Shown piece after piece: positions 29,204 through 44,388 of a stretch of 46,415 nucleotides of DNA. A model generated the notes under the pieces. That model was not told where the DNA came from, searched no databases, and was given only the letters and a program-made list of their open reading frames with translations. Position numbers and translations under genes: made by a program. This DNA comes from Caldisericota bacterium (GTDB lineage: Bacteria > Caldisericota > JANLFM01), in assembly GCA_024655865.1 (NCBI GenBank), contig JANLFM010000008.1, positions 35,577-81,991 of the forward strand, in the 5' to 3' direction. Every line of letters starts with the position of its first letter. Positions within the stretch are counted from its first letter, which is position 1.

Positions 29204-29482
29204 TTTTACCCTCCGTGTATCCTCAATTTGAGAAAAAATGCTTATCTAAAATAAAAAACCTCTACCATCCAAAGGACGAGAGGTTTTCCCGCGGTACCAC
29301 CTTAATTGGCAAAAAGCCCGCTCAGGGCGAAGCCCTTACTGATAACGGAGTACCCGGTAGCGCCTACTTTAGGAGTTCGGGCCACAGCTCCGAGGTGATT
29401 TTCTGGTACCCTTACCTCCAGGCTCGCACCAAACCCTGTTCGCTTAAGGGAAGAAGTACCGTACTCGTCCTCTTCATCGCTT
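29204..29482 (-). promoter_or_regulatory. T-box riboswitch leader, isoleucine-specific
   Basis: The minus strand carries the T-box sequence AAGGTGGTACCGCGGG (29303-29288), which can pair with the free NCCA end of an uncharged tRNA. A long stem I region precedes it, with GGTGCGAG and an AATCACC segment whose ATC at 29399-29397 is the expected specifier for tRNA-Ile. A rho-independent terminator follows (29287-29253). When charged tRNA-Ile is scarce, uncharged tRNA stabilises the antiterminator and ileS is expressed. Confidence 0.93.
29253..29287 (-). terminator. T-box terminator hairpin
   Basis: AAAACCTCT and AGAGGTTTT form a nine-pair stem ending in a T-rich tail on the minus strand. It overlaps the end of the T-box sequence, the arrangement expected for mutually exclusive antiterminator and terminator folds. 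Confidence 0.9.
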
Positions 29483-29488
29483 TCCCAT

Positions 29489-40715: not shown

Positions 40716-40791
40716 TGGTGCGCCCGACAGGATTCGAACCTGCAACCTACGGCTCCGGAGGCCGTCGCTCTATCCCTTGAGCTACGGGCGC
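40716..40791 (-). tRNA. tRNA-Arg (anticodon CCG)
   Basis: A complete cloverleaf on the minus strand: acceptor GCGCCCG/CGGGCGC, D stem GCTC/GAGC, anticodon stem ACGGC/GCCGT with loop CTCCGGA (anticodon CCG, reading CGG), a five-base variable loop, T stem GCAGG/CCTGT with loop TTCGAAT, discriminator A and an encoded CCA. It marks the boundary between ordinary genes and the accessory region. Confidence 0.96.
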
Positions 40792-40960
40792 GCAATTGGA
40801 GCCACTTTCCCGTTTTCGGCCCCGCCTTAGAGCCATCGGTCATTTTAGAATAGTCTCCCTAAGGAGCCATCTTAATTATATATGTTTTCGTCAATAGACG
40901 GCAGAAACATTTAGGAGAAAATTATCCGATCAAAATTTTGTAAAAACACCCTTCTTGTGG

Positions 40961-41027
40961 ACTTAATTGGAAGCCTCTCAAAGTGCTTTAGAGAACGCTA
41001 ACCCTTAGTGGAAAACTCCAATTAAGT
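40961..41027. repeat. Eleven-base inverted repeat
   Basis: ACTTAATTGGA (40961-40971) and TCCAATTAAGT (41017-41027) are exact complements 45 bases apart. The second arm ends two bases before the next stem begins. It is the first of a series of inverted repeats reaching to 41563 in gene-free DNA. Confidence 0.7.
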
Positions 41028-41028
41028 A

Positions 41029-41228
41029 GCGGCCCCTGCGCTCTCTTCCTTCGGCTCCAGCCACACCAGCCAGCCGAAGGTCGAGAGCGCTCCCTCAGGG
41101 ACGAGCGCTTCGCGCTCGAGGGCCGCAAGAAACAGAAGGAAAGGAAAGCCCTCCCTGCCTGCCCCAGTCGGGCTTTCCTTTCCTGGGCGGGGTGGCCCAG
41201 CCTCACCAGCCAGGCGCCCCGCCTTTTT
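41029..41228 (+). other. Structured non-coding segment: three hairpin units ending in a terminator
   Basis: Unit 1 is a closed junction: GCGGCCC (41029) pairs with GGGCCGC (41120). Inside it, GCGCTCTC..CCTTCGGCT pairs with AGCCGAAGG..GAGAGCGC (41038-41090), and CGAGCGC pairs with GCGCTCG (41102-41118). Unit 2 is a perfect 15-pair stem, 41137-41151 with 41170-41184. Unit 3 is GGCGGGG with CCCCGCC (41186-41223) followed by five T. The loops of units 1 and 3 share a 15-base motif differing at one base (41057-41071 and 41197-41211). I find no credible protein here on either strand. It reads like a structured RNA ending in a rho-independent terminator; no clear promoter is seen upstream. Confidence 0.55.
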
Positions 41229-41363
41229 CATTTAGAAAAAAAGCAAAAAGAGCGCCCATACTTTTTTACCCTGATCCTCTTTGACCCGCGCTTTACGGGG
41301 CAATTTGAGGCCATTTTGGAGGAAAGGCAGAGGGAGCAAGTAGGCTTCGCCCAGTAAAACCTC

Positions 41364-41543
41364 ATTTTTTTGACCCCGCTGCGGCCGGCGACATTAAACC
41401 TCTCGGCGCATTTAAGCTGTCAAGGGTGCGGGGGCCCCTCCCACAGGGCGCCCTCCCCGCAGCCCTTGAGGCCAAGCCCTTGACAGCCTGCGCCTCGAGG
41501 AAAAGCGTCGCCTGTGGCCCGCAGCTTTCGGGTCAAAAAAAAT
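41364..41543. repeat. Nested inverted repeats upstream of the 154-residue gene
   Basis: Outer arms are ATTTTTTTGACCC (41364-41376) and GGGTCAAAAAAAAT (41530-41543). Inside, GCTGTCAAGGG (41416-41426) pairs with CCCTTGACAGC (41477-41487), and TGCGGGG pairs with CCCCGCA (41427-41461). A second GCCCTTGA copy (41462-41469) offers an alternative partner for TCAAGGG. No ribosome site or convincing reading frame lies here. Confidence 0.6.
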
Positions 41544-41563
41544 ATGCCGGAAAAAGCCGGCAT
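41544..41563 (+). promoter_or_regulatory. Hairpin next to the ribosome site of the 154-residue gene
   Basis: ATGCCGG and CCGGCAT form a seven-pair stem with loop AAAAAG, ending a few bases before GAGGAGG. It may stabilise the leader or influence translation. Confidence 0.4.
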
Positions 41564-41578
41564 CAGAGGAGGTTTAAG

Positions 41579-42043
41579 ATGAAAATTGAAGTGGCACCTG
41601 AAAGAGATGGCCGAGTGGTCATCACCATCCTTCCTGAAGAGGGTGGCGTCCCTAAGGCGGCCCTGGTGGAGAAGGCCAAGGAAGCTCCCCAGCCTGTAGA
41701 GCCCAAGCCGGAAAAGGCCGAGGATGTAGTGGTAAAGGATCCGGAAATCATCGCCCGGGATATGCAGAACGATCCCCACACCTGGGAAGAGATCGAGAAA
41801 GCAGCTAAAGCAAAGGAAGCGCGCCGGGCCACGGAGAAGCAAATCCGATACTTTCATTATCTGGCACGGAAAGCCGGGATTAAGGACACACACGCCTGGA
41901 TGGAAAAGAACGGTTTTCCCCCTTCATCGAGGGATTGCTCCCAGGCTCAGCTCTCCCGCGCCATTGACCTCTTAAAAGACGAGGAATGGGCGCGCTCCCT
42001 GGAGCCGCCCGGGTGGCGGATGGAGCCTCAAGAAGCCGCCTAA
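41579..42043 (+). CDS. Hypothetical protein, 154 residues
   Basis: Not recognised. The ATG at 41579 has GAGGAGG seven bases upstream, a strong site; the frame is open further upstream only through the inverted repeats. The first 30 residues (KIEVAPERDGRVVITILPEE) look like a beta-hairpin; then a Pro/Glu/Lys linker; then a helical C-terminal half with ATEKQIRYFHYLARKAGI and a second helix block (QLSRAIDLLKDEEW). Segments like TEKQIRY-LARKAGI occur, as I recall, in phage and plasmid proteins. The gene is followed by a perfect hairpin and by the 65-residue gene, probably on one transcript. Confidence 0.8.
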   Translation: MKIEVAPERDGRVVITILPEEGGVPKAALVEKAKEAPQPVEPKPEKAEDVVVKDPEIIARDMQNDPHTWEEIEKAAKAKEARRATEKQIRYFHYLARKAGIKDTHAWMEKNGFPPSSRDCSQAQLSRAIDLLKDEEWARSLEPPGWRMEPQEAA

Positions 42044-42422: not shown

Positions 42423-42510
42423 TGCCTTCAAGAAGTTAGTAAGCAGGAGCCGGCCTTCTGGCGGGTCGCCCCCTGCTCATCGAATAGAGGCCCTCCCGCC
42501 CAGTTCCGGC

Positions 42511-42810
42511 GGCACCGGTCGCAGGGAGGGAGCGCCTGCTCCCTCTCAGGCGGTGGCCAGACCCATCCTCCCCACCGCCTGGGTGCCGTCTCCGCTTCCC
42601 ACTGTTTTTTGTCAGCTTGAGGCCGCAGAGAATATCCTCCTTATGGTCACAGAAAAGATGAACGAAAGTTATGGCAAGAGGACCTTGTCTAACTTGCACC
42701 TGAGCAAGCCATATTTGGAAGAGCTCAGGAACGATAGATATGGTCCAAAGGCTCAGTCAGAGGAGGGGCTGGTTGAGGTAAAGAAGATGTGGCACAAAAG
42801 TCTTTACACC
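42511..42810 (+). repeat. Diverged repeat, copy A
   Basis: Shares its whole length with copy B at 44076-44365. The common parts include GCTCCCTCTCAGGC, CATCCTCCCCACCGCC, a 46-codon frame beginning ATGGTCAC and the end CACAAAAGTCTT. In the 46-codon part, 29 residues agree (63%) and many differences are silent third positions, so the parent sequence once coded for protein. In this copy the frame stays open past the end of the repeat. Probably the 3' end of an old insertion sequence that I cannot name. Confidence 0.7.
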
Positions 42811-43822: not shown

Positions 43823-43950
43823 TTACTCTAAAGGCTGAAGCTTGCTGAGATATGCCAGAGCGCGGTAAATCAGGCTTGCCGCCTCAATCCTTGTAATGGG
43901 CTGATCCGGCCTGAATGCCCCGCCCTCGTACCCGTGATGATCCCCAGCTC
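43823..43950 (-). pseudogene. S-layer homology (SLH) domain remnant
   Basis: The minus strand reads GYEGGAFRPDQPITRIEAAS, then LIYRALAYLSKLQPLE and a stop. FRPDQPITR-x-EAA is the core of the SLH repeat that anchors proteins to the cell wall. The expected GIITG lead is present just upstream but one base out of frame. Only this single C-terminal repeat survives. Confidence 0.7.
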
Positions 43951-44075
43951 ACCCCGGGCCCGGCGATTTTTCTGGCTTTACCTCCCCAAGAGCAGCATTG
44001 AAGTCCAGTGTGAATAAAAAATGGATGCAATTCCCATCCTAAGTGTGTAAACAACAGCCCACCCTGCGCTCCGTC
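43951..44075. other. Gene-free stretch
   Basis: Between the SLH remnant and repeat copy B I see no reading frame, hairpin or promoter worth calling. Together with the pseudogene pieces it makes up a 1.1 kb stretch (43328-44488) without an intact gene. Confidence 0.5.
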
Positions 44076-44365
44076 CGCGCCGGTCGCGGGGAACGCCCGC
44101 TCCCTCTCAGGCTTTGGCCAGACTCATCCTCCCCACCGCCAGCACCCCGCCTCCGCTTGCCCTTTTGCCAGCCTGAAGAAAAATAGAAGATCCTCTTAAT
44201 GGTCACGGAGCAGATGAACTCCAGTCACAGAAAAAGAACCTTGCAGAACTGGCACTTAAGCAAGCCAGCTCTAGAGAAAATGAGAAAAGAGAAATATGGG
44301 ACAGAGGTTCGATCAGAGGAGGCGCTGGTTGAGGTCTAGAAGAACTGACACAAAAGTCTTGACAC
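44076..44365 (+). repeat. Diverged repeat, copy B
   Basis: Second copy of the repeat described at 42511-42810. The 46-codon frame here ends in TAG right after LVEV, and a TAG interrupts the codons before the ATG, so it is not an active gene. The end CACAAAAGTCTTGACAC supplies the -35 hexamer of the promoter for the ABC transporter downstream. Confidence 0.7.
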
Positions 44366-44388
44366 TACCCCGAAACTTCCGCTATAAG
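44359..44388 (+). promoter_or_regulatory. Promoter of the ABC transporter, -35 within a repeat end
   Basis: TTGACA (44359-44364), 18-base spacer, TATAAG (44383-44388, five of six). The -35 lies in the terminal bases of repeat copy B; copy A has TTACAC at the same place. Confidence 0.6.

Follow-up and report, generated by a model that had tools for sequence, protein, structure and literature searches.

Constrained hairpins make up the left end of a mobile-looking, dispersed repeat in one Caldisericota genus

What a run of strong hairpins that carries nearly the same loop sequence twice is doing in front of a small orphan gene is the question raised by positions 41029–41228 of the stretch analyzed here, 46,415 nucleotides of the Caldisericota draft genome GCA_024655865.1 (contig JANLFM010000008.1; hereafter the window). 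The initial annotation described three successive hairpin units ending in a terminator-like stem with five T, and this architecture was confirmed: the RNA fold of 41020–41235 reaches −119.2 kcal/mol (z = −7.9), none of the shuffled sequences folds equally well, and the arms of hairpins 1 and 2 are recovered as inverted repeats (Table 1). The first unit is a closed domain (41029–41126) in which the stem P1 encloses hairpin 1 and two small hairpins; it is followed by hairpin 2 and by the terminator-like hairpin 3. The repeated loop sequence lies within a direct repeat of 20 nt (41057–41076 and 41197–41216, 90%), and a 17/19 repeat inside the segment is attained by 1 of 150 dinucleotide shuffles. 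Almost identical 15-mers had been assigned to the loops of two unlike stems; their positions, their near-identity and the loop of hairpin 1 stand, whereas 41197–41211 is not a clean loop in the window, where hairpin 3 is partly decayed. It is a clean loop in the other copies described below.

Table 1. Features of the unit and its surroundings (window coordinates unless a locus is named).
Feature	Position	Strand	Basis and remarks
tRNA-Arg (CCG), intact, 232 bp from the unit	40716..40791	-	ARAGORN; order MgtC, tRNA-Arg also in G001
Flank with the tRNA promoter side	40792..41023	.	Second copy on contig C6, extending through AAGTAGCGGCxCC
Left end AAGTAGCGG; multibranch domain with closing stem P1 (41029-41035 / 41120-41126)	41024..41126	+	RNA fold
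Hairpin 1, arms 41038-41056 / 41072-41090, loop CCAGCCACACCAGCC at 41057-41071	41038..41090	+	Repeats, fold
Hairpin 2, 15 perfect pairs, arms 41137-41151 / 41170-41184	41137..41184	+	Repeats, fold
Hairpin 3 (41185-41224) with T5, intrinsic-terminator-like, CCAGCCTCACCAGCC at 41197-41211	41185..41228	+	Fold
Near-invariant linker GAGCGCCCATACTTTTTTACCCTGAT, terminator to leader hairpin	41250..41275	+	Alignment of copies
Leader hairpin of ORF-A, about 220 nt, main arms 41365-41393 / 41513-41541	41358..41578	+	Repeats, fold
ORF-A, 154 aa, orphan, C-terminal helical domain	41579..42043	+	ORF list, profile searches, dN/dS, structure prediction
ORF-B, 65 aa	42107..42304	+	Intact in the window and on C28; frameshifted in both G001 copies
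Right-end hairpin R1	42443..42476	+	Three compensatory pair changes, six copies
Conserved right end, including hairpin R2 (42549-42579)	42480..42619	+	Copy comparison
3' remnant of IS256-family element (last ~190 nt)	42620..42809	+	Several copies share its start point behind the right end
Second right-end copy, left-truncated, then IS256 remnant to about 44375	44056..44166	+	Copy search
Tyrosine integrase family, ~298 aa	L060 2680-3640 (G000 C6); L008 1713-2700 (C55); L082 1020-1990 (C38); L081 8700-9699 (C22)		

A DNA search of 41 genomes found the segment in two draft MAGs of one Caldisericota genus only, the window's own assembly (G000) and a congener (G001), where it makes up the left end of a 1.8-kb unit (approximate length) so far restricted to this genus. 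Four left ends were recovered: in the window, on G000 contig C55 (L008), and on G001 contigs C46 (L009) and C33 (L010). All begin at AGTAGCGGCC, the sequence before it is unrelated between copies, and the boundary of the conserved unit is the foot of P1; in L010 the unit starts about 10 nt past the stop codon of a gene that reads into it. Right-end copies number about ten, truncated ones included, and several of them, in both genomes, run at a fixed point into the 3' end of an IS256-family element. Four left ends in unrelated surroundings and right ends joined in this way make the unit mobile-looking, and the proposal that the segment belongs to a mobile unit is borne out to the extent that several copies share their ends at unrelated places. 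The IS256 junction recalls MITE-like or IS256-derived non-autonomous elements, but the left end lacks a matching IS256 inverted repeat and no target duplication was found around the copies. Their flanks share no fixed insertion tetranucleotide, and no transposase for the unit was found; a mobilising enzyme would have to be presumed. The copies come from two genomes, some are cut by contig ends, and the alignment is accordingly shallow.

Between the window and L009, identity across the non-coding left region is 84%, rising to 94% around hairpin 1, as against 52% at the third codon positions of ORF-A, which argues that the front end is strongly constrained. In every comparison, columns that pair are better conserved than those that do not (0.89 vs. 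0.79 identity for the window and L009). Indels between copies measure 1, 2 and 55 nt and are mostly not multiples of three, so that a conserved reading frame is unlikely and the region appears non-coding; a sense or antisense protein, which the initial annotation had named as evidence against its reading, was rejected, since the ORFs present in the segment have no Pfam match and are disrupted by these indels. Non-coding DNA that changes several times more slowly than synonymous positions in the gene that follows points to a functional device in a phylum of which little is known; the conservation could have been inflated by recent exchange between copies. Covariation cannot be assessed for hairpins 1–3 because their stems hardly vary: RNAalifold reports no compensatory change in them and one compensatory pair region-wide, in the leader. 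Stem mismatches in the 5' domain are A–C about as often as G–T, without visible strand preference, and strand bias, tried as a test for RNA, thus gave no clear signal. These two results fall short of demonstrating selection at the RNA level. The arms of hairpin 2 are identical in three copies and the hairpin is deleted from L008, while P1 is retained in L009 and L010 despite differing inner hairpins; as whole hairpins are absent from some copies, hairpin 1, hairpin 2 and the middle domain each seem dispensable.

The loops are retained wherever their hairpins exist. That of hairpin 1 reads CCAGCCACRCCAGCC in the three copies that have the hairpin, and that of hairpin 3 is invariant in all four, each with its T-run (T5 in the window, T6 elsewhere). 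The loop motif occurs twice in the window, where 0.29 occurrences would be expected at up to two mismatches. Across both genomes the 19-mer CCAGCCNCRCCAGCCAGCC has seven matches with at most one mismatch, every one a loop of hairpin 1 or hairpin 3 (a single one in L010, which lacks hairpin 1), and a second mismatch adds one further match, in G001. A both-strand scan of G000 for the complement of the loop, at up to two mismatches, returned the loops alone. In IMG/VR the motif is found on 52 scattered contigs without the flanking stems, which we judged to be chance matches in unrelated sequence, and the linker GAGCGCCCATACTTTTTTACCCTGAT has no exact match there. Selection on the loops, as initially proposed, is therefore supported by their retention in every hairpin-bearing copy together with the slow evolution of the non-coding region and the higher conservation of its paired columns.

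The further proposal that the loops form two-quartet G-quadruplexes is not supported. In the window we count the spacing GG-N2-GG-N3-GG-N2-GG 6 times vs. 2.8 times in shuffled sequences (at most 9 in any of 50 shuffles), while two-quartet patterns of looser spacing number 111, so that this feature is not above chance. The GG positions of the loops are conserved, as is nearly all of the remaining loop sequence. Since the likely sense transcript, terminating at hairpin 3 and leading towards ORF-A, would have C-rich loops, a quadruplex could form on the minus strand only. It is there that the segment shares the spacing of the thrombin aptamer, from which its loop residues differ. Such patterns may arise incidentally where a hairpin loop is GC-rich, and should be read with caution.

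The gene that follows is itself under constraint. Comparison of the window with L009 gives dN of about 0.25 and dS of about 1.3 for ORF-A (dN/dS about 0.2), indicating purifying selection. The frame is intact in three copies and open in a fourth, cut by the end of contig C28, which probably completes the C55 copy, a join that we infer. Homologues are carried by the MAG Caldisericota bacterium A05DMB09, apparently G001; among the phages, plasmids, IMG/VR sequences and other relatives searched there were none, the gene being confined to G000 and G001. Neither Pfam nor NCBIfam matches ORF-A, PADLOC gives no convincing match, and the protein is not recognized as a transposase; a type III toxin–antitoxin system, with RNA repeats and a ToxN-like toxin, was rejected on the same searches. 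It weakly matches PHROG 286 (E 0.0034), a family of unknown function. The C-terminal helical domain is confidently predicted, and fold searches gave nothing significant, the best being a 155-aa myovirus protein over 49 columns (E 0.46). Beside the unit copy on C28 (L042 5175–8745) lie genes for a HATPase protein, a 151-aa protein and a sigma70-region-4 protein, the last weakly matching MzaA (E 3.6e-6); they are possibly a defence cluster.

In front of ORF-A, AACCTC at the foot of the leader hairpin (41358–41363) or a CCTC stretch upstream of it (about 41276–41281) can pair with the Shine-Dalgarno sequence AGGAGG (41567–41572). In the window, L009 and L010 the predicted probability that this site is unpaired is 0.05–0.14 for the full leader vs. 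0.54–0.66 for a transcript starting after AACCTC, and the contrast keeps its direction at 65 °C. The leader is thus predicted to hide the ribosome-binding site unless transcription begins inside it. A search for a consensus promoter inside the leader found no convincing one; an atypical one may be present.

The transposase genes of IS10 and IS50 are protected from impinging transcription. There, as in the folding model of these three copies, a read-through transcript from the end of the element hides the ribosome-binding site of the element's gene, which is free in shorter transcripts; here it is an orphan small protein rather than a transposase that would be controlled, the hairpin block is long, and the effect is a prediction. 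By this comparison the account that we prefer, tentatively and short of calling it probable, is that this left-end segment may shield the unit, and the small gene behind the hairpins, against impinging transcription by means of a terminator and a translational lock. Chromosomal transcription entering the unit would meet a block of strong hairpins ending in an intrinsic terminator (hairpin 3, T5–T6). In a transcript that read through, the two CCTC stretches would pair with the ribosome-binding site of ORF-A within the large leader fold, and because of this pairing ORF-A would remain untranslated; only transcripts starting inside the leader would expose the site.

Several of the observations above are as such a shield would have them: the four AGTAGCGGCC starts at unrelated flanks, including the one close behind an inward-reading gene, the T-run behind hairpin 3 in 4/4 copies, the concealed Shine-Dalgarno sequence in the three complete copies, the slow, preferentially paired and frame-breaking evolution of the non-coding part, the purifying selection on ORF-A, the confinement of the motif to loops (7/7) and the fixed IS256 junction. 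They have to be weighed against the lack of a convincing internal promoter, the absence of compensatory change in hairpins 1–3 with A–C mismatches as common as G–T, the dispensability of hairpin 1, hairpin 2 and the middle domain, the missing target duplication and a record of two genomes with copies cut by contig ends, in which exchange could inflate conservation; moreover, ORF-A being no recognized transposase, the need for protection is left unexplained. If true, the shield would indicate how the mobile units of this group stay silent beside active host genes. Its two near-identical loops most likely, as far as we can guess, repeat one recognition site, read by some protein that the unit encodes; ORF-A itself is perhaps that protein, as a candidate only. 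A bolder version, in which two or, with the right end, three similar 15-nt loops on unlike stems make up a modular recognition code read by ORF-A, linking control of its expression to mobility in a previously undescribed RNA- or ssDNA-based device, seems to us unlikely; loops read by ORF-A would amount to a new loop-recognition module.

The palindromes might act in DNA instead, forming hairpins or cruciforms in single-stranded or supercoiled molecules, with the loops as the site at which a protein of recombination or replication would act to mobilise the unit, on the model of IS200/IS605 ends and rolling-circle origins. We consider this rather unlikely. The hairpins of 41020–41235 are strong on both strands and as DNA (z = −6.4 for the minus strand, z = −8.1 for the DNA fold, no shuffle as stable), the stem mismatches lack a strand bias and the unit begins at the foot of P1, all of which would suit a DNA structure. 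The opposite end of the unit is consistent with it as well: in other copies the loop of R2 contains CCCAGCCTCCCCA, resembling the hairpin 3 loop with a similar CCCAGCCTC core, a likeness reached by 4–10 of 500 shuffles in three copies; but the resemblance is slight and, in the window copy, lacks significance. Neither a relaxase nor a Rep protein was recognized in the unit, its flanks offer no fixed insertion tetranucleotide, and the genus' Y1 (TnpA_REP-like) transposase genes adjoin palindromes of their own, of the GGGGACAGTCCCC type. Dispersed palindromes with GTAG at the foot (AGTAGCGG) are shared with REP/REPIN sequences and IS200/IS605 ends (PMC3116915, PMC8266576), from which the unit differs in its low copy number, its length of 1.8 kb and its genes; a REP/RAYT origin was rejected, as the palindromes flanking the Y1 genes of both genomes (L046, L047) are different ones. 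Those RAYT-like genes, around 1190 and 1880, have AAAAATGGGGACAGTCCCCATTTTT-type palindromes on both sides and are a likely REP system of the genus.

A stand-alone structured non-coding RNA of about 200–400 nt, ending at hairpin 3 and carried on a phage-like integrative element in the manner of the ornate phage RNAs, is in our estimation distinctly unlikely. The multibranch domain with its retained closing stem and final terminator, and a constraint exceeding that of synonymous sites, would fit such a molecule, and R1 at the right end does covary, its three compensatory pairs among six copies being reached by 7 of 500 shuffles. Like GOLLD, ROOL and OLE (PMC12286853), large and strongly structured non-coding elements of phage-related DNA that often lie near tRNA genes, the segment is highly folded; but it is shorter, has an internal terminator, leads into a gene and has neither an Rfam match nor a covariation model. 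Indeed, at the gathering score the 4227 Rfam families leave the hairpin segment unmatched, the window yielding a T-box and tRNA only; covariation is absent from hairpins 1–3, functional-looking copies lack whole domains, and the unit starts at its first stem, leaving no room upstream for a promoter of its own. The T-box leader lies on the minus strand (29269–29486, RF00230).

The phage-like carrier finds some support in the surroundings of the unit. The same tyrosine integrase family adjoins truncated tRNA genes on C6, C55, C38 and C22, and on C55 and C33, which hold two of the four left ends, the distance to such an integrase or a remnant of one is at most about 2 kb, which makes a phage-like integrative element plausible as a former carrier. 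The integrase start codon lies about 16 nt behind the tRNA gene, which in three of the four cases (Arg-CCG, Lys, Arg-TCT) is cut in the T-loop, so that transcription from the tRNA promoter could occur; the fourth integrase abuts a tRNA-Ser-like fragment. Comparison may be made with tRNA-dependent lysogeny as outlined in PMC10865867. At the window locus itself, the gene order of G001 (MgtC, tRNA-Arg, SLH/L,D-transpeptidase-like gene) is split in G000. The window keeps MgtC, the intact tRNA-Arg, the 232-bp flank and the unit; on contig C6 we find the SLH/transpeptidase-like gene, a duplicate of the flank whose last bases are AAGTAGCGGCACC, an initial tRNA portion of about 59 nt and the integrase gene, followed by ImmA/IrrE-HIRAN, CI-like repressor and HNH genes. 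The integrase element seems to have contributed the 5' half and promoter region with which the intact tRNA-Arg was restored. An association of the element with other tRNA genes, suggested as a check, holds in part: the flank and the first bases of the unit are duplicated at the tRNA-splitting integrase of C6, but the other unit copies are not beside intact tRNA genes.

Mere decay, in which a dead mobile element has left relic palindromes kept similar by recent copying or conversion, we hold improbable. The many truncated right ends, the IS256 and SLH-like fragments, the frameshifted ORF-B and the decayed stems of the window copy are what it would leave behind, but ORF-A is intact in three copies, open in the cut fourth and under purifying selection, and across species the non-coding region evolves several times more slowly than dS. 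A retrotransposon-like origin of the many left-truncated copies was rejected, with no reverse transcriptase recognized in the unit and truncations resembling ordinary decay. Fragments of this kind recur at 43830–44375 of the window, where an SLH-like 3' fragment, a right-end copy and an IS256 3' remnant follow in order; the SLH-like fragment and right end are also found on contig C20. At the contig end, 46320–46415 is a repeat also present on C7 (97%), on C12 and in G001, which by eye we judged to be an IS110-like remnant.
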